A stretch of 37,125 nt of DNA from a virus: positions 1-37,125 of IMG/VR virus record IMGVR_UViG_3300042868_013613, one strand, 5' to 3'. The notes below the pieces were generated by a model. The model was not told the origin of the DNA. It saw nothing but the letters and a program-made list of their open reading frames with translations, and ran no database searches. Positions within the stretch are counted from its first letter, which is position 1. Each line of letters begins with the position of its first letter. Below, piece after piece: positions 7,574-37,125 of the stretch. Made by a program: the position numbers and the translations under genes.

Positions 7574-7587
7574 CTCGCTAAATGCAC

Positions 7588-7594
7588 GTATAAT
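7588..7594 (+). promoter_or_regulatory. Candidate leaderless promoter box GTATAAT, six bases before ATG
   Basis: GTATAAT is followed by ATTTTT and the ATG at 7601. No Shine-Dalgarno sequence precedes this start, although the gene is clearly real (RmlB-like). This is the clearest example of the GTATAAT-N6-ATG arrangement. Confidence 0.55.
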
Positions 7595-7600
7595 ATTTTT

Positions 7601-8554
7601 ATGAAAATTGTATACATAACAGGTTGTTTAGGATTTATTGGAAGACATGTGGTTCTATCTTGTCTGGAAAAGGGGTGGTATGTATATGGAATTGACAAAT
7701 GTACTTACGCATCTGACATTAATTTATTGAGTGAATTTAATAAATATAAAAATTTCAACTTTCAGCAAATTGATATCTGTTCTTTAGATAGGTTGGTAGA
7801 TTGTGATTATTTCATAAACGTAGCAGCAGAAACGCATGTAGATAATTCTATTAGAAAAAGTGATGATTTTATTCATTCAAATATTAATGGAGTTTACAAT
7901 ATATTAGAATTACTTAAAAACTACAAAAAAGAAGGCTATGTAACACCTACATTTTTACATTTTAGCACTGATGAAGTTTATGGTGATATTACTGATGGAG
8001 CGCATATAGAAACTGATTTATTAAGGCCTTCTAATCCTTATTCAGCTACCAAAGCAGCAGCTGATCAACTCATCACTGCTTGGTCTAGAACTTATGATTT
8101 GCCATATGTTATTGTTAGACCCACTAATAATTATGGATGCGGTCAATATGTTGAAAAGCTAATTCCCAAAGCCTGTAAATTTTTATCATTAGGAAGGAAA
8201 ATTCCATTACACAACAATGGAACACCAACCCGAAATTGGCTGCATGCTAAAGATACAACTAAAGCAGTAATGACTATAGTTGAATCAGATGTAAAAAATG
8301 AAATTTATAATATTGCTGGTGGATTTGAACAATCTAACCTTGATACTGTTCACAAAATTATCAAAGAGTTTTACCCAGGCAGTGTCTTTGAAACAGAAGA
8401 TTACATAAATTTCAATGTTCATAGACCAGGACAGGATGTAAGATATGCTCTTGATGATTCGAAGATAAGAGCATTGGGTTGGAAGCCTGAATGTGTGTTT
8501 GATGAAGAAATTAAAGAAATAGTAAAATACTATAAAGAAAATTTTGTATGGTAA
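7601..8554 (+). CDS. RmlB-like NDP-glucose 4,6-dehydratase
   Basis: The 317-residue protein is a clear member of the dTDP-glucose 4,6-dehydratase group. The NAD-binding motif GCLGFIG is at 8-14. AAETHVDNSI (75-84) matches the family's hallmark. STDEVYG (122-128) carries the TDE triad used for water elimination and proton transfer. YSATK (147-151) is the catalytic Tyr-Lys pair, and RPTNNYG and GTPTRNWLH follow. The enzyme converts NDP-D-glucose to NDP-4-keto-6-deoxyglucose, the entry point for many deoxy sugars. I chose the ATG at 7601 because the Rossmann strand starts there; the frame is open upstream for 21 codons but adds nothing family-like. The protein is slightly shorter than typical RmlB. 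It heads a four-gene plus-strand unit with the ALS-like pair and an SDR. Confidence 0.9.
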   Translation: MKIVYITGCLGFIGRHVVLSCLEKGWYVYGIDKCTYASDINLLSEFNKYKNFNFQQIDICSLDRLVDCDYFINVAAETHVDNSIRKSDDFIHSNINGVYNILELLKNYKKEGYVTPTFLHFSTDEVYGDITDGAHIETDLLRPSNPYSATKAAADQLITAWSRTYDLPYVIVRPTNNYGCGQYVEKLIPKACKFLSLGRKIPLHNNGTPTRNWLHAKDTTKAVMTIVESDVKNEIYNIAGGFEQSNLDTVHKIIKEFYPGSVFETEDYINFNVHRPGQDVRYALDDSKIRALGWKPECVFDEEIKEIVKYYKENFVW

Positions 8555-8561
8555 TTATCAA

Positions 8562-9578
8562 ATGAAAGTAAATGATTACATTGCTGAAAGATTGTATCAA
8601 GAGGGTATCAGACACGTTTTTGGCATAATGGGTGGTGGAGCTGCTGGTATAAATGATGGTTTTATCAGAAGCAAAATTGAATACATTTGTTTTCATCATG
8701 AACAAGGTGCTTCGAATGCAGCTTTGGCTTATAGCAAGTCCAAAAATCAGATTTCAGTTGTTAACCCTACCACTGGATGCGGAGGATTAAATTGTGTAAC
8801 TTCTCTAGTGTCAGCCTTTCAAGATAGTGTGCCTTTATTATTTATATCAGGTAATTATCGACTTCAAGAGACGACCAGATATCTTAATAAAACTAAAAAC
8901 ATAAGTTTGAGAAAATTTGGTTTACAAGAGCATGATATTATTGAACATGTCAAGTATGCTACAAAGTTTTTTGCATTTATAGAAGACAAGAACGATGTTC
9001 CAATGGTCCTTGAAAAAGCAATTCTAAAATGTGTTTATGACAGACCTGGACCTTGCTGGATTGATATTCCTTCTGATATTCAAACCCAAGAAATCGATAA
9101 TAGTTTTTTATTTCCAAAGATTGAAACTGAAGAAAAAATTTCAAACAAAACTTATATTGAAGAATTTTTCAGTTTTTTAAATAATAGCAAGAGACCATTG
9201 ATTTTGTTAGGTTCAGGGGTAAATATTTCTGATTGTAAACAAGAAGTAATTGATTTTATTGAATTGAATCAAATTCCAACAGTCAGTACATTTTCTGCAA
9301 AAAATATTTTGCCTTTTGATCACAAATTAAGTATTGGCACTATTGGAATAAAAGGAAGTAGAGCTGGAAATTTTGCTTTACAAAATTGTGATCTGTTAAT
9401 TGCTTTAGGTTGTTCATTAAATTCATCACATACGGGATATGATAAAAAACTATTCTCACCAAAATCCAAAAAAATCTTGGTAAATATTGATGAGAATGAT
9501 TATTTGAAAAATAATGTAGATATTGATCTATTTATAAAAAAAGACTTAAAAGGCTTCTTAAATGACATCAAGAATTGA
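8562..9578 (+). CDS. Acetolactate-synthase-like ThDP enzyme, N-terminal and central domains
   Basis: The 338 residues match the PYR and central domains of the acetolactate synthase superfamily. HHEQGAS (45-51) carries the catalytic Glu47. NPTTGCGGLNCVT (68-80) and DSVPLLFISG correspond to the classic TxGPGxxN and DSxPxxxxxGQ segments. PGPCWIDIPSD is a family signature, and a FAD/ADP-binding-like central fold follows. The protein stops where the C-terminal ThDP-binding domain should begin. That domain is encoded by the next gene in the +1 frame with a 17-base overlap. In sugar clusters, the related flavoenzyme YerE adds a two-carbon unit from pyruvate to C4 of a 4-keto sugar. That is a plausible but unproven role here. 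The start is the ATG at 8562, just after the RmlB-like stop. Confidence 0.85.
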   Translation: MKVNDYIAERLYQEGIRHVFGIMGGGAAGINDGFIRSKIEYICFHHEQGASNAALAYSKSKNQISVVNPTTGCGGLNCVTSLVSAFQDSVPLLFISGNYRLQETTRYLNKTKNISLRKFGLQEHDIIEHVKYATKFFAFIEDKNDVPMVLEKAILKCVYDRPGPCWIDIPSDIQTQEIDNSFLFPKIETEEKISNKTYIEEFFSFLNNSKRPLILLGSGVNISDCKQEVIDFIELNQIPTVSTFSAKNILPFDHKLSIGTIGIKGSRAGNFALQNCDLLIALGCSLNSSHTGYDKKLFSPKSKKILVNIDENDYLKNNVDIDLFIKKDLKGFLNDIKN

Positions 9579-10317
9579 CTGGATTGAAAAGTGTAATTAT
9601 TGGAAAGAAAAATGGCCTTTGTATACAGATTGTTTCATTGATGACAATGATGGAATAAATTTATATACAATAATTGAGACTATAAATAATTGCTCTAACA
9701 CCAAAGACATTTTGATGACTGACGCTGGTTCTGCAAATTATGTTTGTTGCCAAAATTTAAAATTAAAGAAAGATCAAAAATTTATTTTTCCTGCAGCTCA
9801 AGGTGATATGGGATTTTGTATACCTGCTTGTGTTGGAGCACAATTGGCGAATCCTGACCATAATATAATTGCGATTATTGGAGATGGCAGTTTTCAAACA
9901 AATATTCAAGAACTTGCTTCTATAAAAGCAATAAAATCTAATTCTAAAATTGTAGTTTTGAACAATGAAGGCTATCTAAGTATTAGAAACACACAAAGTA
10001 AATTTTTTAATGGAAATGTCTATGGTGAATCTAAAAGTACAGGCTTATGGTTTCCTGATCTTAAAAAAATTGCTATAGCATATGAATTCGAATATTTCAG
10101 AATCGAAAGTAATAAACATTTAGTTGATATTTTTGAAAACGAACTTCACAGTGAAAAACCAATTATTTTTGACATCAAATGCAAATATTCTCAAGATGTA
10201 ATACCAACTTCAGCTTTAAAAATAGATAAAAATTCAGGTAAAAAAATTCAATGTGGCTTAGATGACATGTATCCTTTTATGAGCGATGAAGAGCATTCAA
10301 AAGAGATGTTATATTGA
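9562..10317 (+). CDS. Acetolactate-synthase-like ThDP enzyme, C-terminal PP domain
   Basis: The 251 residues supply the missing C-terminal domain of the preceding protein. TDAGSANY (53-60) and the GDMGFCIPACVGAQLANP region resemble the family's GxMGxxxPxAxGAxLA. The ThDP/Mg motif runs from GDGS (107-110) to NNEGY (134-138). The first 20 residues (WIEKCNYWKEKWP) look like the linker helix normally found inside a single-chain enzyme. This suggests that an ancestral full-length gene was split here, or that a frameshift joins the two. The two chains sum to about 589 residues, the usual length of the one-chain enzyme. An assembly error of one base cannot be excluded, but the ATG overlap is well formed. 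Confidence 0.83.
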   Translation: MTSRIDWIEKCNYWKEKWPLYTDCFIDDNDGINLYTIIETINNCSNTKDILMTDAGSANYVCCQNLKLKKDQKFIFPAAQGDMGFCIPACVGAQLANPDHNIIAIIGDGSFQTNIQELASIKAIKSNSKIVVLNNEGYLSIRNTQSKFFNGNVYGESKSTGLWFPDLKKIAIAYEFEYFRIESNKHLVDIFENELHSEKPIIFDIKCKYSQDVIPTSALKIDKNSGKKIQCGLDDMYPFMSDEEHSKEMLY

Positions 10318-11108
10318 TGAATATATTAATTACTGGTGGAGAAGGCTATGTTGCCTCAAACTTATATAAGAACCTTAAATCAAGTTATAATTTAACTACA
10401 ATTTCAAGAAAAGATTTAGATTTGACTATTTCTTCAGAGGTAAATGCTTTTTTTGAAAACAAATTTTTCGACATTGTTTTTCATTGTGCTGTATGTGGAG
10501 GTAGCAGGTTAAAATTAGATAGTTATTATGAAATGGATAATAATTTGAAAATGTATTATAATCTACATCAATTAAAAGATAAGCATTTCAAAAAATTTAT
10601 CACATTTGGTTCAGGTGCAGAAACGCACTCATCTCATACTCCTTATGGATTGAGCAAACATGTAATAGCTCAATCCATCTCTGAAACTGAGAACTTTTAT
10701 AATCTTGTAATTTTTGCTCTTTTTGATTCAAGTGAATGGGAATCTAGATTTATAAAAGCAAATATCTTACGTTACATAAATAAAGATTCTATAATTATTC
10801 ACCAAGATAAATACATGGATTTTTTTTACATGAATGATTTTATAAAAGTAATAAAATACTATATTGAAAATCAAAGCTGTCCAAAATCAATTAATTTTTC
10901 ATACAGTGAATCAACAAAACTTTCAGACATTGCAAAAAAAATCAACAATCTGAATAATTACAAAGTTGATATTTGTATAGAAAATCAAGAAATTGCACCA
11001 AGCTATTGTGGAGATTATAATTTGGATGCATTGAATATTAATTTTGATGGCTTATACAATGGCATTAAAAAAGTTTTTGATGAAATAAATTCTGCAAATT
11101 ACAAATAA
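10317..11108 (+). CDS. RmlD/GDP-fucose-synthase-like NDP-sugar reductase (SDR)
   Basis: A 263-residue short SDR. GGEGYVA (7-13) is the nucleotide-binding loop, with the third Gly replaced by Ala. VFHCAVCGG matches the fucose-synthase-like VxHxAxxxGG signature. FGSGAE (97-102) and YGLSK (110-114) provide the Ser/Tyr/Lys set. The C-terminal substrate domain is short. The start is the ATG in the TGATG overlap with the ALS-like C-terminal gene, in preference to the in-frame TTG one codon upstream. It probably reduces the 4-keto group of the sugar nucleotide made by this unit; that is inferred from family and operon position. Confidence 0.78.
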   Translation: MNILITGGEGYVASNLYKNLKSSYNLTTISRKDLDLTISSEVNAFFENKFFDIVFHCAVCGGSRLKLDSYYEMDNNLKMYYNLHQLKDKHFKKFITFGSGAETHSSHTPYGLSKHVIAQSISETENFYNLVIFALFDSSEWESRFIKANILRYINKDSIIIHQDKYMDFFYMNDFIKVIKYYIENQSCPKSINFSYSESTKLSDIAKKINNLNNYKVDICIENQEIAPSYCGDYNLDALNINFDGLYNGIKKVFDEINSANYK

Positions 11109-11117
11109 TAAAAATAA

Positions 11118-11124
11118 GTATAAT
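11118..11124 (+). promoter_or_regulatory. Candidate leaderless promoter box GTATAAT, six bases before ATG
   Basis: The box lies in the 22-base gap after the SDR gene. GTATAAT is followed by GTAAAT and the ATG at 11131. No Shine-Dalgarno sequence is visible, and the spacing is identical to other unit heads. Confidence 0.55.
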
Positions 11125-11130
11125 GTAAAT

Positions 11131-11787
11131 ATGTCCAGATTTGATACAGATTTAATTTTTAAGATAGATGATAAATGGTTTTGGCGTAAAGACGACCATA
11201 ATCTCAAGACATTTAATGGATTGTCAAGTGAAACAGACTTACTAGAGGTTGTAAAGCCTTATCTAAAAGGAAACAGAGTTGTAATCCAAGCAGGCGGAAA
11301 CTGTGGGATGCAAGTTGTAAAGTTTGCCGATCATTTTGAAATGGTTTACACGTTTGAACCCGATCCAGTAAACTTTCACTGCTTGGTAAATAATCTTCCA
11401 TACAATAATGTAATCAAATTTCAATGTTGCTTGGGAGATGACCACAGAATGGTATCTATGACAACACTTCCAAATGAAATTGGTGGTTTCTATGTCAACC
11501 CGAATTACGGAACAACACCAACATTAAGGATAGATGACTTAGCATTGAGCCATTGCGATTTCATTCAATTAGATGTTGAGGGATATCAACTATTTGCTTT
11601 GATGGGTGCTGTAAATACAATCAAAAAATTCAAACCTGTCATTAGTGTTGAATTTGACTGGGCATTTAGATACAACGTAAATGTTGGTGATATTAAGTCT
11701 TTTATGGCAAACTTGGGTTACGAAAAAGTAGAAACTTACACTACTGATCACATTTACACATATCAAAATCTTTCTTTTAGTTTATGA
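11131..11787 (+). CDS. FkbM-family SAM-dependent methyltransferase
   Basis: The 218-residue protein has the FkbM methyltransferase layout. The SAM-binding strand-loop is VIQAGGNCGMQVVKF (51-65), where the usual DVGANxG is QAGGNCG. YTFEPDPVNF (73-82) is the ribose-binding acidic loop, followed by PTLRIDDL and FIQLDVEGYQLFALMG, the very conserved D-x-E-G segment. FkbM enzymes O-methylate sugars or glycans, and they recur in phage and surface-polysaccharide clusters. Gly in place of Asp in the first motif is seen in some family members. The gene overlaps the downstream SDR by ATGA. It probably methylates the sugar made or transferred by the cluster. Confidence 0.86.
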   Translation: MSRFDTDLIFKIDDKWFWRKDDHNLKTFNGLSSETDLLEVVKPYLKGNRVVIQAGGNCGMQVVKFADHFEMVYTFEPDPVNFHCLVNNLPYNNVIKFQCCLGDDHRMVSMTTLPNEIGGFYVNPNYGTTPTLRIDDLALSHCDFIQLDVEGYQLFALMGAVNTIKKFKPVISVEFDWAFRYNVNVGDIKSFMANLGYEKVETYTTDHIYTYQNLSFSL

Positions 11788-12677
11788 ACATCTTAGTTAC
11801 TGGTGCAAATGGTTTTTTAGGCTCAAATATATGTAATTTGCTGTCAAAAAATCATAACATTTATGCTGCCTCTAGAACATTTACTAAATTATCAAAACAT
11901 AATATAGTCTGCATTCGTTCTGAAATGTCAGACTATATTACTTTAAACGAAACTATTAAAGATAATAAAATAGATACAGTTATTCATTGTGCTTGGATGG
12001 GAGGAAATTCATCTAAGGATACTAATGAATTGTGGCAAACAGAAAATATAAGCTACAGTACTATTCTATTAGAAGCTTGCGCAAAACACAAAATTAAACA
12101 TTTTATTGGTTTTGGTTCATCTGCAGAATACGGAAATCAAAATACTAAATTCAATGAAGACACAACGTGTTCTCCAACTACAATGTACGGAGTTAGCAAA
12201 AATTGTTTTAAAATGATTTCTGAAAATTATTGCAAATCTAATAATATTTTGCATAGTTGGATAAGGCCAGTATATACTTATGGCCCAAATGATGTAGAGA
12301 CTAGACTGATACCAAAAGTAATTTTGTCATTACTCAAAAATCAAAATTTGACATTGAATAAATGTTCTGCTGTAGTAGATTACTTGTATGTTGAAGATTT
12401 TGCCAAAGCAGTAAAAATTATTGTCGAAGAAAAACTTCAAGGCAACTACACTGTTTGTTCAGATGGAGAAATCGATATAAGAAACGTAGTTACATCTATA
12501 TACAATAAAATAAATCCTTCTTGCGTACTTAACTTTGATGATGAAATTGAAGAAATAGGCCCTAAGTATGTTTGTGGTACATCTCAAAAATTAAGGTCAG
12601 TAAGTAACTGGTTTCCTGAAATAGATTTTGAACAAGGTTTAGAACAAACTATTTCTTATTTTAAAAAGTTCGTATAA
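11784..12677 (+). CDS. NAD-dependent epimerase/dehydratase (extended SDR)
   Basis: A 297-residue extended SDR with a complete active site. GANGFLG (7-13), VIHCAWMGG (66-74), FGSSAEYG (110-117) and YGVSK (135-139) are visible, followed by IRPVYTYGP and VVDYLYVEDFAKA. The C-terminus ends in a typical GLEQTISYFKKF helix. It is most like GDP-fucose-synthase/NDP-sugar reductases that act on 4-keto sugars. It is coupled to the FkbM gene through an ATGA overlap. The stop codon lies inside the GTATAAT box of the next gene. Confidence 0.82.
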   Translation: MNILVTGANGFLGSNICNLLSKNHNIYAASRTFTKLSKHNIVCIRSEMSDYITLNETIKDNKIDTVIHCAWMGGNSSKDTNELWQTENISYSTILLEACAKHKIKHFIGFGSSAEYGNQNTKFNEDTTCSPTTMYGVSKNCFKMISENYCKSNNILHSWIRPVYTYGPNDVETRLIPKVILSLLKNQNLTLNKCSAVVDYLYVEDFAKAVKIIVEEKLQGNYTVCSDGEIDIRNVVTSIYNKINPSCVLNFDDEIEEIGPKYVCGTSQKLRSVSNWFPEIDFEQGLEQTISYFKKFV

Positions 12678-12678
12678 T
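12672..12678 (+). promoter_or_regulatory. Candidate leaderless promoter box GTATAAT, six bases before ATG
   Basis: GTATAAT is followed by GAGATT and the ATG at 12685. The upstream gene's TAA stop lies within the box, so the preceding coding sequence contributes to it and chance is a little more likely here than at the intergenic copies. Confidence 0.45.
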
Positions 12679-12684
12679 GAGATT

Positions 12685-13494
12685 ATGAATAATCTGTTGC
12701 TTAATTTTTTACAAGGTGGTCGAATTCTAGAATCTTTAGATGCTGAAATTTATCTTTCATCTTTATCCAAGCTCAAAACATTTAAAAAACTTGTTTGTGT
12801 TTTTGATGTTCCAGCAGAACAGATCGAAAAACTTAAAAAATATTACGATTATGTAATCCCGGTTAATTCTGGACTTGTTCCTGTAAACTTTTGTTACTTA
12901 GCATACTTCAATTGGCTGTGTGAACATGGAAAGGACTTTGACTATGTAATGCACTGCGATATGCGTGATGTTGTTATTCAAAGAGACCCATTTCATTTTA
13001 TGGAATCACATCCAGATAAAGAACTATTTTTAGTTTGCGAAGGTATGAAGATTGAGGAAAATGATTGCAATCAGATGTGGCATGATTGGGTTCTTAATAC
13101 AATAGTTTATAATAAAGAAAAGTATAGTGATTCATATGTTTTAAATGGTGGAACATATGGAGGGAAAACAAACGCTTTCTTGAATTATTGTACTCTCATT
13201 CTTACTGCTATGAATAGGAAGTACAACTATATTATTCCTGACCAGGCAATGTTAGGTTACTTGTATAGGCAACTTAATCAAAACCCAAATGTAATGCTTA
13301 CACATCCTATGTCTGATAACTTTTGCGCTACAGGAGAGGCAATTAAGAGAGATAATGTAACTGTTACTTTTGACGGTAAAAATGTCTGCACTGTAAACAA
13401 TGAACCATTCTATCTATTTCATCAATGGGATAGAACTATTTATGCAGACACTTTGAGACAAAAACAAGCGAATACTTTATCTTTTTCTATTTAG
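12685..13494 (+). CDS. Glycosyltransferase-like protein (GT-A type, DMRD motif)
   Basis: This 269-residue paralog of the 5670-6458 protein has all the same landmarks. MHCDMRDVVIQRDPFHF spans 89-105, with the DxxD pair at 92 and 95. VLNGGTYGG (152-160), PDQAMLGYLY (185-194) and a C-terminal FHQWD follow. The intact Asp residues suggest an active metal-dependent transferase. No signal peptide or membrane segment is seen. It closes the sugar cluster and converges on the virion block, with the two stop codons overlapping by two bases (13492-13493) and no hairpin between them. Donor and acceptor are unknown; a virion or host-surface glycan is suggested by the context. Confidence 0.72.
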   Translation: MNNLLLNFLQGGRILESLDAEIYLSSLSKLKTFKKLVCVFDVPAEQIEKLKKYYDYVIPVNSGLVPVNFCYLAYFNWLCEHGKDFDYVMHCDMRDVVIQRDPFHFMESHPDKELFLVCEGMKIEENDCNQMWHDWVLNTIVYNKEKYSDSYVLNGGTYGGKTNAFLNYCTLILTAMNRKYNYIIPDQAMLGYLYRQLNQNPNVMLTHPMSDNFCATGEAIKRDNVTVTFDGKNVCTVNNEPFYLFHQWDRTIYADTLRQKQANTLSFSI

Positions 13495-14078
13495 CCTAAT
13501 TGTCTTTCAACATCTATATCTATGTCAGCAATTGAACTTTTCCTTGACTCGTGTTTGGTAGCCAAGATTAGTTGCATAGTTTCAAATTCTTTCATAGACA
13601 ATTTTGAGAACTCGTCTCTGCCAAAAGATACTAAACCTCTAAGCATGTAGTCTATTTCAACAATAATAGGCGGAACAGGATATGTTTCTGTGTCATTGGG
13701 GTTAAAGTATTTTTTGGCAGATATGTAATAAAAGTTTGCTTCATCTGCCGAAAGATACAAATAATTTTGATATTGCACCCAAAGTTTTTCAACAATAGTG
13801 TGGTCTAAAAAGTCAATTAACGACTTATTATATTCTGGGAAAAATGTAACTCCATCTTCAGAATTATAAGCAGATAAAATTGCAATATTTAATATTTCTC
13901 TTTTTTCAAATTCAGTATTTTGATAAACTACATTGTCTTTCTTGCGGAAAGACTTAGCGTCAATAAGCAACCCTTCTTTCCAAGTAATTTCTTTAATCAA
14001 AAATTTGACATTATCAATATCAATAATGTGTACTTTATCTGATTTTACTTTTTCGTAATATTCTAAAAACTCTTTCAT
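13491..14078 (-). CDS. Hypothetical protein, possible tail assembly chaperone
   Basis: A 195-residue soluble protein. It follows the second tail-tube-like gene with an ATGA overlap and is last in the minus-strand virion block. An early ITWKEGLLIDAKSFRKKD stretch, followed by a mixed helical region and a charged C-terminus, is weakly reminiscent of T4 gp26/baseplate-type or tail-chaperone proteins that begin with a target-binding segment. I do not recognise a firm family. Position after the tube gene is where many phages encode the tail assembly chaperone, but no tape-measure gene follows on this strand. Confidence 0.6.
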   Translation of the reverse strand: MKEFLEYYEKVKSDKVHIIDIDNVKFLIKEITWKEGLLIDAKSFRKKDNVVYQNTEFEKREILNIAILSAYNSEDGVTFFPEYNKSLIDFLDHTIVEKLWVQYQNYLYLSADEANFYYISAKKYFNPNDTETYPVPPIIVEIDYMLRGLVSFGRDEFSKLSMKEFETMQLILATKHESRKSSIADIDIDVERQLG

Positions 14079-15391
14079 GATATATGAAATTCTGAAACCA
14101 GAGGATTTCCAGTACCAAAATATGCTGTAAACTCACCAAGCTTAGCAACAAACTTATACTCGTGAGTGTAACCGCCTGTTGGACTAATTTGTACATCAGG
14201 ATTTGACCAATCTACATTCTTTATTCTATAAAAATATAATGGCCCAAATGACATAGTTAGCGAAGTTGTGTTCTTGTTTACAATACTAGTATTCACATAA
14301 CTAAATATCTTAATGGATCCTGTCACTTCTCTTGAAGACAAACTTGCGAATCTTGGACCAACTTTGTCACCAAAATAAACTGGACTTGAGCCATCGTTCA
14401 ACAAATCTCCACCAGGCATTGTAAATTCAAACAAAATGTTTTGACTTACTTCTAAGGTCATACTTACAAGCCTGAAATTAACATTTTTGCTATTTCTAAC
14501 AAAATTTATAAAGCTTGCATACGATTTGTGAAATGTTGAAGCATCGAAAAAACAATCAGTTAAATTAATAGGCCTATAATAACTTTGAAATGGTAATGAC
14601 GATACGCCTGCAGAATTCAAAGTTAGATTATATTCTGGCAAAACATTACCATCTAAATCAAGCATATTAGTTCTTGCAGTTGTAGTGAAAGGTTTGTAAG
14701 GCGGAATATTACTAGGAGATATCATTGATTTACCTCCTGAAAATGATGCTTGAATTTCTACATCACCAACAGAACTAGAACCATCTACAGAAATTCTAAA
14801 ACTGCTCATGAAGCATGGACCAAACGTTTTGTGTGTTGGAATAGAAGATGCAGTCATCATTGGATACAAAGGTATAACACTTGCTTTGTAAATAAGATAC
14901 TCTGCATCATATTGAACATTAAATGAAGTTGAATAAAGTGGATTAAACGAAAAGTTTGCTGAGTATTTTTGTTCTGAAAATATTGGAACGTTATTTAATG
15001 TTAATCCAGTAAAGTTTGCAAGAGGTTTGTAAATATTGTTTCCTGCATTGTCATTATATGATGAACAATATAATGGAAAATAATTCTTATTGCTGCCTAG
15101 TAGATTTTGAGGATCATTGAAAAAAGGATCAGAAAAAATTGGGACTCGAGTAAAATGACCATATTCTTTTCTGTTATTAGAAGCAGTGTATCCTAGACGA
15201 TATAAATCCCAAATATATGCTCTTGATTTATTTGAGGCTTTATTTATTCTATGTCCACCATAACTTAAGATTAGTTGTGAGCCTGGAATAAAAAGTTTTT
15301 GAACATCAATGTTATTTAAGATATCAGTAAGATAGATATTATGTGATGATGCTGGAGTGTTGTTAATAACATTTGAAACATAATTTGGCAA
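14075..15391 (-). CDS. Second tail-tube-like virion protein
   Basis: A 438-residue beta-rich protein without charged helices, typical of virion proteins. Its last third parallels that of the tube-like gene at 15803-17251. A VTGSIKIF strand is followed by SLTMSFGPLYFY, then NVDWSNPDV and a closing strand pair, where the other has ISGTMSY, ITFNMGPVKL and EVVWTAQ. This suggests paralogous tube-fold proteins. The start appears to be TTG at 15391, two bases after the upstream stop: GGCGGAAAG lies just before it, and the first in-frame Met is far downstream. It may be a minor tube, tail-tip or head-proximal ring protein. Confidence 0.65.
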   Translation of the reverse strand: MPNYVSNVINNTPASSHNIYLTDILNNIDVQKLFIPGSQLILSYGGHRINKASNKSRAYIWDLYRLGYTASNNRKEYGHFTRVPIFSDPFFNDPQNLLGSNKNYFPLYCSSYNDNAGNNIYKPLANFTGLTLNNVPIFSEQKYSANFSFNPLYSTSFNVQYDAEYLIYKASVIPLYPMMTASSIPTHKTFGPCFMSSFRISVDGSSSVGDVEIQASFSGGKSMISPSNIPPYKPFTTTARTNMLDLDGNVLPEYNLTLNSAGVSSLPFQSYYRPINLTDCFFDASTFHKSYASFINFVRNSKNVNFRLVSMTLEVSQNILFEFTMPGGDLLNDGSSPVYFGDKVGPRFASLSSREVTGSIKIFSYVNTSIVNKNTTSLTMSFGPLYFYRIKNVDWSNPDVQISPTGGYTHEYKFVAKLGEFTAYFGTGNPLVSEFHIS

Positions 15392-15392
15392 T

Positions 15393-15803
15393 TTACTTTC
15401 CGCCTGTGAGCTCCAACCATTTCTTTGAGAGAGCTTTGACTAATTCATATCTCATATGATTAACATTATTGATATCAGGATAATAAACTTCTGTTTGATC
15501 TTCTTCTTTATCGTCAACAATTATTTTTTCTGTTATTCTGATACTTGAGAAAAAGGTAGATAAAATCATACGACAAAGAACTGAAGTCCTGAGAAGAGGA
15601 TTGCCTGTAACTGAATTTATAATTGTTGATTCTTCAATAATGTGTGACATCTCACTAAAACTTCTTGCCTTGACATCACAAGAAATTACTGACGAACCTG
15701 AAGGACTTATCTTATAACAAATAATTTCTTTTTCAGCATCTCTAATGACATCACAATTTAATTTGAGCTCAAACCTTTTGCTTGCATCAACAAATATACT
15801 CAT
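15393..15803 (-). CDS. Hypothetical small virion-block protein
   Basis: A 136-residue protein of unknown function between the two tube-like genes. It starts with a TAATG overlap on the tube gene and carries an AGGAAA Shine-Dalgarno sequence. It combines an N-terminal beta-rich half with a C-terminal helix (MRYELVKALSKKWLEL). No signal or membrane segment is visible. A tail assembly or tube-capping role would fit the position, but there is no motif to support one. Confidence 0.6.
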   Translation of the reverse strand: MSIFVDASKRFELKLNCDVIRDAEKEIICYKISPSGSSVISCDVKARSFSEMSHIIEESTIINSVTGNPLLRTSVLCRMILSTFFSSIRITEKIIVDDKEEDQTEVYYPDINNVNHMRYELVKALSKKWLELTGGK

Positions 15804-17251
15804 TAATAATTTCCTGTTGCTTCTAAAGTGAAGTCCTGGGTATAGTTTTGAGTAACAACTTGAAATGAAACTGTATTTTTTTGATACTGTTCACTGCCAT
15901 GTTCTTGTGATTGTGCTGTCCAAACAACTTCAGGCAAATCAAGTTTCACTGGTCCCATATTGAAAGTTATACCACCATTGTTTACACTTGAAGGACCTGA
16001 TAAAAACTCTGTCATCAAATACGGCTTCATGGGACCAGTATAAGACATTGTTCCTGATATACTTCTCCCTTCGCTGTAATACCCAAAAGGAAGAAGATTT
16101 TTCATTTTATTTTTGACAGCTACGGAAGATTTAGAATTCAAAGTATATACTGGCTTTAAGTTATTTGTAATTTCAACAGAGATACTATTTACAAAAATAC
16201 TATCTAGTCCGGTTTTTTGATAACCTTGAAATACCTTGCTGTCACTTACAGATCCCAAGCCAAAATATCCGTAGTCTGGTATATTTTTACTTACTTGTAA
16301 ACTGTATCCATTTAAGAGATAACTTGGTTTTTTAGTCAAATATTTTTGAACAATAGTTTCAAAGTTATTATAGATACTTGTCTGATACTTTCTATCTACA
16401 CCAAGTACTTTCAAGTCAACTTCAACATTGACTGTTTCTCCAGGGGTAAAACTAATTGAAAACTTATCTACAAGGCAACCAAAAAGTAATCCTTGCTTAA
16501 CTGAAAATAAATTGAAAGTAGAATCTTTAGTATAGTTTTTTACATAAGAGGCTATATAACTAGTATCTCTTACAAAAGATGTTCCCAATCCGCTTGACAG
16601 TGTTATAGACCTGTTTGCTTTAGAAACACTTATAACTTGCACACTTTGCGAAGACTCAGTGATGTCATTCTTTATTTTAGCAGTGAAAGGTGTGTCAACT
16701 GCTAAAATTTCTGCAATATTATCAACATACAACACACTAGTACCAGTGCCAATAGTTGCTGAATTTGCTGATGTAAATCTGGATAATATCGATGTGGGTG
16801 AACCATATTTTGCTTGCATACAATAATCAAAAAATGCTGCAAGAGAAAAGTCCATATATCCCCAAGCATCTATTCTAAATGGAAAACGTAATGTTACTGT
16901 ATTCTCTATATGACCTAAGCTGAAAGTTTGAGGATTGATACCCTCACCAGCCAATCTTTCAGTGCTTATCTGTTGATTTTTACCAATAGAAAAGTTCTCT
17001 ACTGAAAAAATATAATTTTGGTCAATATTATCAAAATTAAGATTATAGTCAGGGTCCTCACCATAATCTTTTGATAAAACTATCAAATCAAATGAGCCTA
17101 AATCATATGACGGATACGAAATAATACTTTGAAAGTTTTCGTATGATTGTTTGTATATGTGTTGTGTTGCTACTGATTCAGAGCTAGCAATACCAGATAC
17201 ACCAAGCGTAACGTCAGCAAATGCCCTGACATTATTGTTAGATTTTCTCAT
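15803..17251 (-). CDS. Tail tube-like (major tail) protein with inserted beta-barrel module
   Basis: The 482-residue protein fits the phage tail-tube fold. GCLVDKFSISFTPGETVNVE is the characteristic tube strand-turn-strand. It is followed by VDLKVLGVDR, a long exposed middle, then GRSISGTMSYTGPM and a closing pair ending in FTLEATGNY. Residues about 161-236 form a separable module (GTSVLYVDN ... RSITLSSG) that also occurs in the 817-residue protein. Tube proteins of well-known phages are usually 150-250 residues, so this is an enlarged version. The gene lies downstream of the connector and terminator-like genes, as expected for a tube. Confidence 0.68.
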   Translation of the reverse strand: MRKSNNNVRAFADVTLGVSGIASSESVATQHIYKQSYENFQSIISYPSYDLGSFDLIVLSKDYGEDPDYNLNFDNIDQNYIFSVENFSIGKNQQISTERLAGEGINPQTFSLGHIENTVTLRFPFRIDAWGYMDFSLAAFFDYCMQAKYGSPTSILSRFTSANSATIGTGTSVLYVDNIAEILAVDTPFTAKIKNDITESSQSVQVISVSKANRSITLSSGLGTSFVRDTSYIASYVKNYTKDSTFNLFSVKQGLLFGCLVDKFSISFTPGETVNVEVDLKVLGVDRKYQTSIYNNFETIVQKYLTKKPSYLLNGYSLQVSKNIPDYGYFGLGSVSDSKVFQGYQKTGLDSIFVNSISVEITNNLKPVYTLNSKSSVAVKNKMKNLLPFGYYSEGRSISGTMSYTGPMKPYLMTEFLSGPSSVNNGGITFNMGPVKLDLPEVVWTAQSQEHGSEQYQKNTVSFQVVTQNYTQDFTLEATGNY

Positions 17252-26048: not shown

Positions 26049-26543
26049 CTATTGATTTTGACCCTTGGATCTTTTGCCTTCAGTAGGATTTATAGAAATA
26101 CCTCTCAGCGTAGACCTAACGAATCTGTCACCTCTAAGATTTCTTTGTCCAAATAATCTAATCTCACCATTTTGAATACGAACAATTTGGTTTTGTGCAA
26201 AATCAAACCTAACTTTTTGAGCTTCGGAATATTGTTGATCTGAACCTTGTAATGCTTGCATATAAAACATTTGTGCTGCTAAGATTGCACATATAACTGG
26301 AACTGGATGAGGGTAAGATACATCTCCACCCATATTTACTTGTTTAAGCGGGACATCATAAATTGTTGCCAAACTAGCATCAATATCTGCAGAAGCTTGT
26401 TGAATAAAGAAATCAATATTTATATTAGACGCAGACTCAGGAGTAGGATTTCTAAAATTAGGCACAGGATTATCGCCTTCTGTTACAACGTTAGGCGGCA
26501 AATATTGTTTCACGTCACTTACTGAACAATAAGATCTAGGCAT
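26049..26543 (-). CDS. DUF1320/gp36-like head-tail connector (head completion) protein
   Basis: The 164-residue protein begins with the typical YCSVSDVKQYLPP segment. Helices follow with IQQASADIDASLATIYDVPL (47-66) and VPVICAILAAQMFYMQ. This matches the connector pattern of helix, As-x-x-IdxxLa-x-x-Y-xvPl and a hydrophobic helix seen in Mu gp36 and DUF1320 proteins. The C-terminus is basic and extended. Such proteins form a ring under the portal. The ATG overlaps the preceding stop as TAATG and has a GGAG Shine-Dalgarno sequence. Confidence 0.72.
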   Translation of the reverse strand: MPRSYCSVSDVKQYLPPNVVTEGDNPVPNFRNPTPESASNINIDFFIQQASADIDASLATIYDVPLKQVNMGGDVSYPHPVPVICAILAAQMFYMQALQGSDQQYSEAQKVRFDFAQNQIVRIQNGEIRLFGQRNLRGDRFVRSTLRGISINPTEGKRSKGQNQ

Positions 26544-30362: not shown

Positions 30363-30710
30363 TTAATCCTTTTTTCTCTCTATTGGCAATGAAGTTATGC
30401 CATCTAGCCCCTCTTTTCCAGTCCACAATTCATTTGATTGAGATTCTCTCGAATTTGGGTCATAAGATTGTTTTCTCACATTTTTTTGGTCTTTAACAAA
30501 GTCTGCCATTTGCTTTCTTTTCGTTGTAGTTCCAAATTGTTTTTCTTTTGCAGATAATCCTTCTTGAATATTAAAGGAATTGAAAACTCTTTTTGCAGTT
30601 CCATCTCCACAAGGACAAGGAATTTCTGCTTTGTAATCACTAAATGAAAGTGAAATTACAAAAGTTTTAGGTTCATTTTGACAATTACAAACAAATTCAT
30701 ATCGTGGCAT
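30363..30710 (-). CDS. FmdB-like zinc-ribbon protein with CxC pairs
   Basis: A 115-residue protein starting MPRYEFVC, the classic FmdB/CxxC_CXXC_SSSS opening. The metal ligands are C8/C10 (VCNC) and C32/C34 (PCPCG). Both knuckles are therefore CxC, not the usual CxxC. AKRVFNSF then matches the family's R-x-F/L-S ending. The basic, Gln/Lys-rich C-terminal half has no recognisable domain. I chose the ATG at 30710, since family homology begins there, although the frame is open upstream. It is divergent from a second zinc-ribbon gene 52 bases away. Small FmdB-like ribbons are common in phage packaging and late regions, with no defined role. Confidence 0.75.
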   Translation of the reverse strand: MPRYEFVCNCQNEPKTFVISLSFSDYKAEIPCPCGDGTAKRVFNSFNIQEGLSAKEKQFGTTTKRKQMADFVKDQKNVRKQSYDPNSRESQSNELWTGKEGLDGITSLPIERKKD

Positions 30711-30762
30711 ATAAAGGTACTTGTACAAAATTCTATGAAATCTACAAGGGAGAAAATATAAA

Positions 30763-30939
30763 ATGAGTTCTGATTTATCTGACGCAGCGAATACACACAA
30801 AATGTATTGTGTTAAGTGTAGAACTATGGTAATGGTTACAGCACCAAAGAGAGTTGTAATGAAATCCAGCAGACACGCTCTTCAAGGGAAGTGTCCTCAT
30901 TGTTCTTGCTCAACATTCAAAATTACAAAAGCAGAGTAA
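30763..30939 (+). CDS. DUF5679-like small zinc-ribbon protein
   Basis: A 58-residue ORF: MSSDLSDAANTHK, then YCVKCRTM, KRVVMKSSRHALQGKCPHC and STFKITKAE. The CxxC pairs (CVKC and CPHC) and the intervening basic hairpin match the DUF5679 pattern found in archaeal and viral small proteins. AAGGGAGA lies 10-12 bases before the ATG. The stop is followed one base later by the ATG of the 857-residue gene, so the two are probably cotranscribed. Function is unknown. Confidence 0.72.
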   Translation: MSSDLSDAANTHKMYCVKCRTMVMVTAPKRVVMKSSRHALQGKCPHCSCSTFKITKAE

Positions 30940-30940: not shown

Positions 30941-33514
30941 ATGAAGTTTATTTTCAACGATAGTTTTTCAACAGACCCTAATTTGTTTAAGACACAAACA
31001 AATGAAAGGTCTGTTTTCGTTTCTGGTAATCTTATTTTTGAAAAATCATCTTTTGCTGCTTCTGGTAGAGTTATAAATTTAGCCAAAAAGTGGAGATCAT
31101 CTAGTGCTAGCGAAAGAAGAAAGATCTCAAAAGATGTTGAAGATGGAACAGGCGATGCAGCAGGTTGGTCAGACAGTGAGAAAGATGATTTTCAAACTGA
31201 AATAACTTCTTCTTCAAGTTCGTCATCATCTAATAGACCTCCTGATGAATCTATCACTCGAAAGTACTTAGATACAATAGTTGACAGTTCTGATGCTATG
31301 GGTAGTGCCGCTGATCAAGCAAGTGCTAAACTTTCATTAAGAAGTAGAATTGTTGATCAATTGAAGCCTTTTATGTCAGAAGATGAAATTGGAAAACTTT
31401 TTGATAATTTTATTTTTGATATTGGACTACCAGAGTCAGAAGTTCTTGACTTTATTAATTATATTATAGACTTTTCTTCTGAAGCTGGTTCTAATATCAA
31501 AGAACTTTTTAGCTTCGCTACTATGCACTATGCAACTAGAAGAGAGAAAGGTTTAACTTTACTTCTTTTAGAATTAGGTTCAAAACTTCAGAAAAAGTAT
31601 CCTGAAGTAAACTTTTTCCAAATGATGATTGATTCTGCTAATGGAAAAAAACCCAAGCTTGGTAAATTAGCAATAATTAATGATCAAACAGATATGGAGT
31701 CTGCTAAAAAAATCTTCTCTCTTGCACAACATAGAATTGTTGAACAAAATGAGGCATTAAACAGAGAAAGAAGAGAAGTCAAAGATAGACTTCAAGCAAT
31801 GCAAGAAAGAACTAATCTTCAAAGAGCACTTTTTGATGCTATGAAGATGAATGAAGTAGAACGTGCTTTAACTACTGAACTTGAAAAATTTGGCGAAACT
31901 TTTAGAAGAATCATTACAAACCCTCAGTTTAGAGCATTAAAAGATCTTCAATATACAATTAATGCTGGCAGGAGATTATTAGACGCTTGGATGTCATTAT
32001 ATCAAGATGTTCAACCAGTGTCTCCAAGACTTTCTCCTACAGAATCCAGAGATGATCCGAGATCAGTTAGTAGATTTACAGGTGAATCTCAAGGCGTTAA
32101 CCCAAATAATTTCCCATCAAGAAGAAAACTTTTAAGCTCAAGACCTTCTAAGTTTATAAAAGTTGCTCAAGCACAAAATCAACAAAATCAACAAAACCAA
32201 GCTTTACAAGTACAAAGATACTTAATAAATGGATTTATAAGTTCTATAAATTCTAAAGTGGTTCCTCACTATAGAAATGGAAATTACCCACCTCTACTTA
32301 AAGATTTTATGCTTAATTATTTAAATATATTCTCTTCTGAGTTTGGTAAAGCCCTTAGATCTAATCAACCAGTTTCATTTACAGATTTGTATAGAAATGT
32401 AAAATCTAAACTTTCATTAACTGCTAATAGAAGAATTGCTTCTTTGCAAAATAACTCAAGAGAAGTAACTGCTCAACAAGGTGGTGCTCAAACACAAAGA
32501 CCAGCAGTTCAACCCCAGTTAGAAGTATTTTCCGGGTACATTGATGCTTTGACGGGAATATTATTTAATCTTGGAAAATACGAAACATTTGTGAGAATGT
32601 TTAGTACTGGTAAGATGCTTGACTATGCTAGTGTGTTAAAAATGCATGGACTTTATGAAAATCAACTTTTCATGGAGTTAGACTTGCAACTTGGAAACGT
32701 AGGAAGATTTGCACCATCAGATCAATCAATCATGCCTGGTGGAAAAATCAGCCCACAAGGTGCTACTATTATCGCAAATGCTGAAGAAGTCGATGCAATA
32801 ATAGGATTATTTCCTCAAGAACAAGCAGCTGCAGAAAGACTTGATACTAAAATAAAGCAAGATGAAGCAACTCTGGGACAAGCAGAAAATAACTTAGGTA
32901 TAGAAGCATCCCAAACAGTTCAACTAGAAGAAGACAAAGTTACTCCTGAAGGCGACAAGGCACCATTAGAATTTCCTGCTGAACTTATGCAGAAATACGA
33001 AGCTTTTGTAAATGAAACACAAAATATAATCAAGAATCTTTATGTCCTTTTAGGGATTAGAAGAAATATGAGAACTCGTGCTGAGACTGAAGGTATCGAC
33101 CCTATTATAACAAGTACTCTTCGCAGATACGAGCAAGACATTCTTATAAGAATTAAGAAACATGAAGAAACTCGTGATAAATATAAATCAACAAATTTGA
33201 TAAGAGTTGAGCTTGAAAGAAAAAGAAGATTAAAGCAACTATTGGGTCCATTAGAAAAACAAATCCAATTATTTGCTGATGCTGGAATTTCTATTGCTTC
33301 GCTCATCTCTGAACCTAATGGTTTACTTAATGTTATGAAAAAAATAAGAGATGAAGAAGAAAATGCTTTAGACAAGTTGATTGATAGGTACACAGAATTA
33401 AAAGAAAATATTACTCCTGTAAACTTAGGCAATTTCCAAAAACCAACTGTAACAAAAGATACAGGACAAGTTGAAATTGGTGAACCTGAAGAGCCAACTA
33501 GCGAGATGATTTAA
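30941..33514 (+). CDS. Large helical protein of unknown function (857 aa)
   Basis: The protein is mostly helical. A basic N-terminal segment leads to a poly-Ser linker near residues 89-98. A helical core follows (about 105-370), including long charged stretches such as EQNEALNRERREVKDRL. Next come a low-complexity linker with a SKFIKVA motif (403-409) and a QNQ tandem repeat. A second helical domain and a coiled-coil-rich C-terminal half (about 625-840) complete it. No signal peptide, membrane segment or enzyme motif is seen. It is coupled to the DUF5679-like gene and precedes a smaller gene that also carries SKFIKVA. Possible roles include scaffold, tape-measure-like or inner-virion protein; none is established. 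Confidence 0.62.
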   Translation: MKFIFNDSFSTDPNLFKTQTNERSVFVSGNLIFEKSSFAASGRVINLAKKWRSSSASERRKISKDVEDGTGDAAGWSDSEKDDFQTEITSSSSSSSSNRPPDESITRKYLDTIVDSSDAMGSAADQASAKLSLRSRIVDQLKPFMSEDEIGKLFDNFIFDIGLPESEVLDFINYIIDFSSEAGSNIKELFSFATMHYATRREKGLTLLLLELGSKLQKKYPEVNFFQMMIDSANGKKPKLGKLAIINDQTDMESAKKIFSLAQHRIVEQNEALNRERREVKDRLQAMQERTNLQRALFDAMKMNEVERALTTELEKFGETFRRIITNPQFRALKDLQYTINAGRRLLDAWMSLYQDVQPVSPRLSPTESRDDPRSVSRFTGESQGVNPNNFPSRRKLLSSRPSKFIKVAQAQNQQNQQNQALQVQRYLINGFISSINSKVVPHYRNGNYPPLLKDFMLNYLNIFSSEFGKALRSNQPVSFTDLYRNVKSKLSLTANRRIASLQNNSREVTAQQGGAQTQRPAVQPQLEVFSGYIDALTGILFNLGKYETFVRMFSTGKMLDYASVLKMHGLYENQLFMELDLQLGNVGRFAPSDQSIMPGGKISPQGATIIANAEEVDAIIGLFPQEQAAAERLDTKIKQDEATLGQAENNLGIEASQTVQLEEDKVTPEGDKAPLEFPAELMQKYEAFVNETQNIIKNLYVLLGIRRNMRTRAETEGIDPIITSTLRRYEQDILIRIKKHEETRDKYKSTNLIRVELERKRRLKQLLGPLEKQIQLFADAGISIASLISEPNGLLNVMKKIRDEEENALDKLIDRYTELKENITPVNLGNFQKPTVTKDTGQVEIGEPEEPTSEMI
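32174..32200 (+). repeat. Tandem 9-bp repeat encoding QNQ units
   Basis: Three consecutive units, CAAAATCAA, CAAAATCAA and CAAAACCAA, lie in the linker of the 857-residue gene directly after the SKFIKVA motif. The repeat keeps the reading frame and may vary in copy number between relatives. Confidence 0.7.
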
Positions 33515-33516: not shown

Positions 33517-34191
33517 ATGAGATTTATTTTATCAGCAACAAGTCACCCTATAGTCAATGACCCTAGATATTCTGACTATACCAAAACATTCTTAACTCCT
33601 CAAGATGTCAAGAGTGATAAGGATTTAGTTGCTGCTGAAGTTGATAGAATAAAAAATATTATTCCAAAAGAACAAACTTCAATATTAGATGAAAATGCCA
33701 GAGCAGTAGACAAAGCGCTATTTCTTCAGCGTATGAATGGTGCACTTAAGAATTTGGAACAGCAACAAGGGTTTTCTGATGTTCTGCGGTCTGAGCTTGT
33801 TTCGGGAACTGGATTAACTTCAGATTACAAAATTGGAGAAATACCAGAACAATCTGATGCCGAAAATAAGAGAGAGCTTGCTTCTATACAAAGATTGATT
33901 AGAGAAAGACAAGAAAATCTTGCAGAAATTGACGGTTATATATTGAGAATACTTATGGGCAAACCTTTCCAAAAATTTAATTCTAACATTAAAAGCAAGT
34001 TTATTAAAGTTGCAGATGATATGGATAAAGAAGCAGATAAAGTTACTAAAAGATATTTTAATGAACTTTATGAAGACTCTGAAGGAAGTCCAAATTACGG
34101 GGATATTCTAGAAAACCCTGAAGACTATCATCACACTTTAACTACTGGGTCAAGCGAAGAACCAAAGCCAAAAAGGTTCAAGAAAGTATAA
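33517..34191 (+). CDS. Hypothetical protein sharing the SKFIKVA motif
   Basis: A 224-residue charged, helical protein. It opens MRFILSATSHP, similar in style to the MKFIFNDSF opening of the preceding 857-residue protein. It has a central helix (NKRELASIQRLIRERQENLAEI) and carries SKFIKVA at 160-166. The C-terminus is acidic and then basic (PKPKRFKKV). It begins two bases after the upstream stop, so the genes form one unit. The shared motif suggests that both bind the same partner or are processed alike. No family was recognised. Confidence 0.6.
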   Translation: MRFILSATSHPIVNDPRYSDYTKTFLTPQDVKSDKDLVAAEVDRIKNIIPKEQTSILDENARAVDKALFLQRMNGALKNLEQQQGFSDVLRSELVSGTGLTSDYKIGEIPEQSDAENKRELASIQRLIRERQENLAEIDGYILRILMGKPFQKFNSNIKSKFIKVADDMDKEADKVTKRYFNELYEDSEGSPNYGDILENPEDYHHTLTTGSSEEPKPKRFKKV

Positions 34192-34210: not shown

Positions 34211-37125
34211 ATGTCAGAAATAAATTTTATCGATTACGATAAAATTACGATTCACTCTGATGCATTTGTGTCATCAGATGAGTTGAATTGTTATTTTCAG
34301 TATATTCCCTCAACAAAAGCACTTTCTTATAATATTAAGAAAGACAAGCATACTGCTGGCACAACTGAAGATCCTAATGACTATAAGATACCAGATGTAA
34401 AAGAAAAAATTTCACCTAAAAAATTATATAGAGTGAATCCTTTTCATCGTAACTTTGCAGAATATTTGCAACTTCATAAAACTAATACTGATCCTGAAAT
34501 TATTTTTCCAACTGTTGTTACAGAAGTAAAAGTTGTCGAGAATGACTATTCAGATATGGGTTTGAATCAAGACCAAATTGATTTTCTTTTGGCATTGAAA
34601 AACTTAAAAAATCTCAAAGTAGAAGACACTAGCCGTGAACTTAATATAGATAAATTTGAGATTACTGAAAACAAATTATTAGATGGTTTTTTCCAACTTT
34701 ATCCAAGATATATGGAAAACTCAGTAGTTGCAAGTAACTCTTCTAATCTTTATATGGAAGAAGAGAATGCTGAAGATACTATGTCTTTTAATGAAGATCA
34801 GAGTTCAGTTGCATATCACTTAAAACAAATGGGCTTAAATCCAAATGAAGTTAAGGTAAAAAAAAACTTTCAAGTAAGAACAGGTAATGCTAAAGATAAG
34901 CAAATAACCCCATTCTTACAAGAGAAAAAGATTGAAAATAATTTTGAAACAAAAATAGGTACTGTTAATAATACTGAAAATTTGACAAATCTTAACATTG
35001 CAAATAATAATAAACAACAATACCTAAGTAAAATTTCCACTAGTACTTTTACTAACAATCAAAGTTTCAACTCTTTAGTCCAGAATATAAATCAAACTAA
35101 GAATTTCGCCGTCTCTCAAAATATAAGAGTAAGAAAAAGTGTTTCACAAGAACAAGTTGATTATCAAAATATATTCAAGTCATTACTAAAAGACTTAAGC
35201 CTTAAGAATGATGTTACAAATTTATATAATAGAGAAATTAATCTTCACAGCAGAAATATTACATTTGATTTTCTTTCTCAGATAAATCAATCATTTTCCA
35301 AAGAATACAATACAACTATTAAGAATCAAACTTCTGCTTATAATTTCTATCGATATATTGAAAATAGGTACAGAGAGTTTGTTCAAAATCTTAACTTCTT
35401 CAATGAGTCATTTCAAGAGTTTAAGCGTACTGAATATAAAATCAGGAATTCTTATCAGAATTTACATCAACATAATTTTACTCAAAAGAATCAATACAAC
35501 AAGAGTGTTATTAATTTAACTAAAGAAATAAACTTTGAAAACAACATGAATGACTATAGTTTCCAAAGCGCAATTTTGAAAACTGTAGAAACGTCAAACA
35601 CAATTACAAAAAATAATATTGAAAAAATTAAAGAAACACTTAATGTAGTTCAATATAACGTTCAAAATGTAAATCAAAAAGTTTCTTACTTACAATATAA
35701 AACAAAAAACACAATAAACAAAGAGTATAGAAACGTATTAAACAGTCAAGAATTTTCTGACGAATATTCCAATTTGATTATCAACAAAATTAGTAATGTA
35801 ACAAATAATACAGAAGTAAAGAAAATACTTTCTTTAGTCAAAAATGAACAAACACTAGAAAATTTATCTTACATAGTTCGTCAAAGTCAAATTAATGTTG
35901 AAAATCTTAAATCTATTTCAGAATTCATCAACATTTCAAAAAATAACAATTTTGATATATTTAAGATAAGTAGCGAATCAATTCACAAAGTTAAAAACTT
36001 GATTTCATTATCTAATTCATTTGAAAACAACTATGTCAAAAACAATATTGCTAACAATTATCAAGTTCAAAGAATTTCCAAAAATTCAGAAATAAATCAG
36101 ATAACTAATTTGGTCAATCAAGTTTCGAATGTAAACAATTTGAGTGAAATCGCCAATAATGTTATAAGGCTATCAAAAGTAGAAGACGTAAAGATTTTTG
36201 ATAATATAAATCTCTTAAGCCAACAAAAAATCAAGCAGTCTTTCAAGATTGTAAGAAAAGTAAGCGAACTCAAAAATATCAATGAGTTAGAACAAAATAT
36301 TTCTTTAGTAAATAATAAATCTAATTTTAATAACGAGTCCATCAGTCTTAAAACTTCAAACATAAACCAAATCAATAAGTTTATTAACCTAATTGAAAAT
36401 ACCAATTTGAACTCAACTCAAATCTCTGCTTTGAATAAATTAAGTACTGAAAATATCAATAACGTTTTGCAGACAGTCAGTAAAGTTTCAAATAACAATT
36501 TCGATAAAATAATTAACGCAATTTCAAATGAAAATATAACTAAAATTGTAAAAATTAGCAATATCAATGAAAATCAAATTTCCAATATCAATTTGACTAA
36601 AAATGAAATCCAAAGTGTTGTTAGGTTAGAAAGACAAATTAGAAATTACTCTGAAAAAGTTAAAGTCAGAGAAACCTTAAAAACTTTGGACCTGATTGAA
36701 AGCAAACCAGAGATAAATCAAATATTTTCAAACAAAATATCTAACACCAAATTAAGTCAGATATCAGAAGTTTTGCAAAATATAAATTTAATAAAGAGTG
36801 ATAAACATCTTGCTTTCATTACTAAATTGAGTTTTGATTCAAATAAGAAAAATATTTCTAATGTCTACAATGAATTGAACGTCACTTCAATCCAAAAGTC
36901 TGAAAAGAAGACAGAAAAATCATTCACATCTATAAATAAGCAGATTGATAGATTGTATAGAATGAGTGAAAGAGTTGAGTCAAAAGCAGCTCGAGCAGAA
37001 CAATCATTTTACGACTTGATTAATTTTAGTGATTATTCTTTCACTAAAAAAACAAGTACAAAAAAAGAAATTAAAAATTTCTTCCAAACTTTAAATCAAG
37101 TAAAGATTACTAACGAGCAAGTAAG
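34211..37125 (+). CDS. Asn-rich helical repeat protein, partial (at least 971 codons)
   Basis: An ATG at 34211 opens a frame with no stop for 2915 bases to the window end. The first 120 or so residues look globular (SSDELNCYFQYIPSTKA, KLYRVNPFHRNFAEYLQ). The rest is extremely Asn/Lys/Ile/Ser-rich and helical. From about base 36070 to 36620 there are short Asn-capped helical units of roughly 13-16 residues, for example NINQINKFINLIENT, NINNVLQTVSKVSNN and NITKIVKISNINEN. There is no signal peptide or long hydrophobic segment. Length and helicity resemble a tape-measure or fibrous virion protein, but it is on the strand opposite to the tube genes. The true C-terminus and full length are unknown. 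Confidence 0.7.
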   Translation, partial: MSEINFIDYDKITIHSDAFVSSDELNCYFQYIPSTKALSYNIKKDKHTAGTTEDPNDYKIPDVKEKISPKKLYRVNPFHRNFAEYLQLHKTNTDPEIIFPTVVTEVKVVENDYSDMGLNQDQIDFLLALKNLKNLKVEDTSRELNIDKFEITENKLLDGFFQLYPRYMENSVVASNSSNLYMEEENAEDTMSFNEDQSSVAYHLKQMGLNPNEVKVKKNFQVRTGNAKDKQITPFLQEKKIENNFETKIGTVNNTENLTNLNIANNNKQQYLSKISTSTFTNNQSFNSLVQNINQTKNFAVSQNIRVRKSVSQEQVDYQNIFKSLLKDLSLKNDVTNLYNREINLHSRNITFDFLSQINQSFSKEYNTTIKNQTSAYNFYRYIENRYREFVQNLNFFNESFQEFKRTEYKIRNSYQNLHQHNFTQKNQYNKSVINLTKEINFENNMNDYSFQSAILKTVETSNTITKNNIEKIKETLNVVQYNVQNVNQKVSYLQYKTKNTINKEYRNVLNSQEFSDEYSNLIINKISNVTNNTEVKKILSLVKNEQTLENLSYIVRQSQINVENLKSISEFINISKNNNFDIFKISSESIHKVKNLISLSNSFENNYVKNNIANNYQVQRISKNSEINQITNLVNQVSNVNNLSEIANNVIRLSKVEDVKIFDNINLLSQQKIKQSFKIVRKVSELKNINELEQNISLVNNKSNFNNESISLKTSNINQINKFINLIENTNLNSTQISALNKLSTENINNVLQTVSKVSNNNFDKIINAISNENITKIVKISNINENQISNINLTKNEIQSVVRLERQIRNYSEKVKVRETLKTLDLIESKPEINQIFSNKISNTKLSQISEVLQNINLIKSDKHLAFITKLSFDSNKKNISNVYNELNVTSIQKSEKKTEKSFTSINKQIDRLYRMSERVESKAARAEQSFYDLINFSDYSFTKKTSTKKEIKNFFQTLNQVKITNEQV

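Follow-up and report, generated by a model that had tools for sequence, protein, structure and literature searches.

What does a phage gain from a very long, Asn-rich reading frame that runs off the end of its sequenced genome, and what kind of protein could it encode? The question is raised by the last gene of a 37,125-base virus record in IMG/VR, the whole of which was analysed here and is referred to as the window. An unfinished Asn-rich frame of at least 971 codons had originally been predicted at this place, and this was borne out, since a single stop-free frame (P0001) extends from the ATG at 34211 over 971 codons of the plus strand to the end of the window. The frame does not close because the record itself stops there; in a relative it closes about 134 codons further on. 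Asn accounts for 15.8% of the residues, with 10% Lys, 9.5% Ile, only 0.6% Gly and 1.1% Pro, and no Trp. The GC content of the genome is 32-34%, and AT-richness alone does not explain the Asn content, given that the other long ORFs of a related genome (G001) mostly have 4-11% Asn, far below the value in P0001. The frame can be divided as follows.

34211 to 37125, plus strand: main ORF (P0001), truncated where the record stops; the complete protein is estimated at about 1,105 aa.
34211 to 34930, plus strand: conserved N-terminal domain, residues 1-240, of non-helical pattern and with 4% Pro.
34931 to 35155, plus strand: Asn-rich variable linker, residues 241-315, with 23% Asn; conserved less than any other part of the N-terminal half.
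35156 to 35770, plus strand: predicted long helices, residues 316-520, without Pro or Gly (low-confidence model).
35771 to 36790, plus strand: length-variable block, residues 521-860, of short Asn-punctuated helical units with hydrophobic residues three apart.
36791 to 37123, plus strand: residues 861-971, with which the conserved helical C-terminal region begins; its remainder lies beyond the record.

The missing end is available in the closest relative, IMGVR_UViG_3300027759_006101 (G001), a near-complete jumbo phage genome of 358,269 bases, whose terminase, portal and head protease genes indicate a tailed phage. The ends of this contig (1-545 and 357606-358150) overlap by 545 bases with 97% identity inside the P0001-family gene, which makes the 358-kb record effectively circular. 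The homologue is divided between both contig ends and, across the join, forms an in-frame gene of 1,127 codons including the stop (1,126 aa). In the alignment to this protein P0001 is short by a stretch of about 134 residues that is helix-prone throughout, so that the full window protein should have about 1,105 aa. A downstream membrane or enzymatic domain, which would count against the original prediction, was looked for in the complete proteins of the relatives and is absent from them, including from the part that the window lacks; these proteins are predicted, in low-confidence models, to be helical and free of strands.

Homologues of P0001 were found in nine distinct other contigs, G001 among them (contig 3300034093 apparently duplicates 3300034082), and the complete members have 1,126 aa (G001), 1,294-1,324 aa and, in one case, 1,548 aa. 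When the most conserved N-terminal block was used for another viral scan, the same contigs came up and no additional ones. A tblastn search of 50,697 phage records gave no match, and none was found in a bacterial and archaeal genome collection. Searches of PHROGs, Pfam and PDB sequences with P0001 and its homologues gave no significant match either, the nearest tape-measure family being Tape_meas_lam_C, with an E value of only 0.06 in 2 of 11 members. Judged by its sequence, P0001 is not assigned to any known tape-measure family of Pfam or PHROGs.

Members of the family share a layout in which about 520 conserved N-terminal residues and about 280 C-terminal residues are arranged around a middle of variable length. 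Identity with distant homologues over residues 1-240 is 80% in the first block and 48-58% thereafter, and the C-terminal 280 or so residues, with 79-97% identity within the main group, are among the best conserved parts. Beyond about residue 316 P0001 is predicted to be almost all helix, with very low AlphaFold confidence (mean pLDDT 32.7); the model of the C-terminal half of one homologue (L019), built with nine sequences, is also of low confidence (mean pLDDT 38.5). In a crude propensity ranking of the G001 ORFs longer than 450 aa, the P0001-family protein is the most helix-prone, and its composition is matched by none of the others. No hydrophobic segment is present in P0001 (maximum 19-residue hydropathy 0.5), and no cell-wall enzyme domain was found in the family.

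A regular repeat of 13-16 residues, as first perceived, was not confirmed in the window copy, where the autocorrelation over lags 5-60 never exceeded that of shuffled sequences (best z 2.6, 95% shuffle level 3.2). What is left of the proposed, unrecognised class of Asn-capped repeats is an irregular pattern with non-random junctions: residues 481-971 contain 19 N[ILV][STDN] junctions against 8.5 expected (z 4.0, about twofold) and 24 [ILV]..[ILV]..[ILV] runs against 9.1 expected (z 4.7). In the variable block, hydrophobic residues are strongly enriched at a distance of three (z 4.7-5.8) and depleted at distances of two and four, a spacing that would suit short helices and not strands or a standard coiled coil. 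A weak heptad-like signal occurs in residues 316-520 (i+7 z 2.5); in the 521-860 block no heptad periodicity was detected, with an i+7 z near 0 as compared with 4.9 for T4 fibritin. An Asn spacing of 15 is preferred in three homologues (z about 4), which are mutually close and not independent. The non-random Asn and hydrophobic patterns point to a selected structure.

The middle has grown by in-frame duplication, as scored by local alignment against shuffles. Two homologues (L018 and L019) carry an in-frame tandem duplication of about 120 residues (z 19-28), and within P0001 itself one weak, older duplication covers about 100 residues, at an offset of 165 (score 103, the highest of 60 shuffles being 91-93). 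Repeat units of some tape measures were likewise reported to duplicate and get lost (Belcaid 2011, PMC3271669), and the tape measure of RcGTA (g11) carries 12-13-residue repeats (PMC7296036). The P0001 family resembles these proteins in its short units and in their duplication and loss. It differs in that their units span 11-13 residues and are marked by F/W or other large residues, whereas P0001 has no Trp and lacks F/W patterns, including the 11-residue register ([FW]-x(10) or 11-11-18) of some tape measures; the Asn spacing of about 15 residues, in turn, stands out only in the P0001 relatives.

The genes of the window that bear on the function of P0001 are the following.

33517 to 34191, plus strand: 224-aa gene directly 5' of P0001, in a place conserved in the relatives.
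30941 to 33514, plus strand: 857-aa gene, first of the plus-strand operon and alternative tape-measure candidate; 834-938 aa and fast evolving in the relatives.
26049 to 26543, minus strand: head-tail adaptor-like gene (phrog_195, E 6.6e-5).
15803 to 17251, minus strand: probable tail-tube or tail protein, whose homologues weakly match the phrog_290 minor tail protein (8 of 9, best E 0.0018).
14075 to 15391, minus strand: 438-aa gene without family match, putative second tail-tube-like protein by eye.
13491 to 14078, minus strand: 195-aa gene, last of the tail cluster and, by its position, a possible tail assembly chaperone.

Between the adaptor-like gene and the probable tail protein the minus strand holds large unassigned genes, and the 195-aa gene is followed by sugar-nucleotide genes and no tape measure. 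P0001 lies on the opposite strand from the tube cluster, about 17 kb away. Where the order is readable, it consists of divergent operons followed by the 857-aa gene, the 224-aa gene, the P0001-family gene, a gene for a PKD protein of about 3,470 aa and the baseplate-hub gene; the same-strand order of P0001, giant PKD gene and hub is kept in all seven readable contigs (G001 and six others). The hub protein of the relatives matches phrog_196 in 7 of 7 homologues (best E 1.3e-10), and the giant protein, with PKD and RCC1 domains (Pfam PKD_4, E 7e-150), is probably a surface appendage. Its gene (L009:7522-17961 in G001) has a near-constant length of about 10.42-10.48 kb in seven contigs, measured in G003-G008 as the gap between the P0001-family gene and the hub, next to a P0001-family gene of 1,126-1,548 aa. 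The hub gene of G001 is surrounded and followed (292333-298161 and the cluster 316628-345753) by an array of genes for fibre-like, beta-rich proteins of very large size (974-2,856 aa), and domains in some of these match head-decoration and tail-fibre families of PHROGs. At the other side, the minus-strand operon is headed by a small zinc-ribbon gene (30363-30800, FmdB-like by eye), whose position is kept in the relatives.

The order of the genes, the size and helix-prone composition of the protein, and its conserved ends, between which a middle of variable length has grown by duplication, together suggest that P0001 is a divergent tape-measure protein for the tail of phages from a large, uncultured lineage of jumbo type, encoded beside the hub and not beside the tube, a reading to which we assign a probability of roughly 0.6. 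Two of the traits expected of a tape measure are found, namely conserved ends with a middle that varies by in-frame repeat change, and a tail operon adjoining hub or tip genes. A third, a position immediately behind the genes for tube and chaperone, is not; this arrangement is common among tape-measure genes and not universal, and the same can be said of hydrophobic segments and cell-wall enzyme domains in tape measures. The points counted against the tape-measure reading are the lack of a hydrophobic segment, of a profile match and of the F/W register, the location opposite to the tube strand, the low pLDDT of both models, and the presence in the same operon of the 857-aa protein, also long, partly helical and fast evolving. 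Of the two roles named in the original prediction, tape measure or fibre, the former is the better supported and the latter the worse. The gene order, seen there as an obstacle to a tape-measure role, is largely accounted for by the conserved split layout, the hub operon and a parallel in phage T4.

In T4, gene 29 also belongs to the baseplate-hub cluster, at a distance of about 18 kb from gene 19, which encodes the tube, and its product reportedly starts in the baseplate and lengthens as the tube grows (PMC3004832). In contrast to the situation in the window, the T4 hub and tube clusters share one strand, and gp29 (590 aa) is Ala-rich and has Trp and a hydrophobic stretch (2.2). Phage λ gpH and P2 gpT are also long, helix-prone and encoded upstream of baseplate or tip genes, with P2 gene T placed just before U and D, the latter of which we take to be the hub gene. 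In contrast to P0001, both are Ala/Gly-rich, contain hydrophobic segments and are encoded on the same strand straight after the tube and chaperone genes, a slot that holds a sugar-nucleotide gene here. The maximum 19-residue hydropathy of T4 gp29, λ H and P2 T ranges from 1.6 to 2.5, against 0.5 for P0001, and P0001 shows no detectable similarity in sequence to tape measures for which a structure or a profile exists.

If P0001 is a tape measure, its copies would join the baseplate hub, encoded downstream in the same operon, and would stretch out as helices through the lumen of the tail as the tube subunits, products of the other-strand genes, polymerise around them. The span of the helical part would set the number of tube rings added before the terminator caps the tube, and the conserved ends may contact the hub or baseplate and the terminator of the tail. 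The helical block with its Asn punctuation would act as an adjustable ruler, lengthened by in-frame duplication and shortened by loss. At about 1.5 angstrom per helical residue (PMC9024508), the tail predicted for the window phage measures roughly 120 nm if the helical part alone is counted and 170 nm if the whole protein is, and that of the longest relative roughly 185-230 nm. The natural length series from 1,126 to 1,548 aa makes this prediction testable.

An external rod, such as a whisker, a collar or the shaft of a tail fibre, made of helical bundles and attached through the conserved N-terminal domain is an unlikely alternative, in spite of the helical, rod-prone character of P0001 in the low-confidence models, the weak heptad signal and the position before a giant protein that is itself probably a surface appendage. 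The C-terminal region, where a fibre tip would be expected to vary, is conserved, the long block lacks heptads, and length differences arise through internal duplication and not through domain exchange. Among specific fibres, a fibritin-like coiled coil was rejected because heptads along the rod are restricted to the weak signal in residues 316-520, and a receptor-binding tail fibre because the C-terminal region is strongly conserved in place of forming a variable tip.

It also seems rather improbable that the 857-aa protein is the tape measure and P0001 some other tail or baseplate component. Tape measures often evolve fast, and the 857-aa family does so (25-40% identity over lengths of 834-938 aa); it is partly helical, third in the crude G001 ranking, and its hydropathy maximum of 1.12 is nearer to that of known tape measures. 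Against this, the protein has 5% Gly and 4% Pro and contains long stretches that include prolines and look disordered; its variation in length falls mainly within a linker at about alignment columns 400-640 and not in a repeat block, and its gene is further from the hub gene than P0001. Least credible is a different helical structural or assembly protein, such as an ejected internal protein, a scaffold or a chaperone of the giant PKD protein, with Asn mostly a by-product of the AT-rich genome. The missing family assignment and the strictly kept order of P0001 and the giant gene would suit it; the much lower Asn content of most other long ORFs in the same genome, and the selected structure to which the hydrophobic and Asn pattern points, would not.

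More tentatively, and with doubts outweighing confidence, the tape-measure reading may be extended to a new sequence class, defined by irregular, approximately 15-residue Asn-punctuated short helices, hydrophobic residues three apart instead of heptads, no Trp, almost no Gly, no membrane segment and a location in a hub operon that diverges from the tube operon. If true, the class would add a ruler whose repeats follow another grammar, and the lineage would cross the host envelope without a membrane channel derived from the tape measure. The sequence of P0001 resembles nothing in the searched libraries, the tape-measure job itself being common in such viruses. In divergent large phages tape measures often go unannotated, and a family with conserved ends and a variable middle, combined with hub synteny, offers a way to locate them. 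The moraphages, aquatic jumbo phages like the P0001 lineage, are a case in which the authors could identify no tape-measure gene (PMC12619734).

Past the tail cluster, positions 1-13494 of the window contain sugar-nucleotide, aminotransferase and TPP-dehydrogenase-like genes, part of which are common to G001 and part exchanged. A thiamine-pyrophosphate (acetolactate-synthase-like) enzyme is encoded there on the plus strand in two overlapping frames (8544-9578 and 9562-10317), which in G001 correspond to one 575-aa ORF (L007:4379-6106), the split in the window being due to a frameshift, a natural split or a sequence error.
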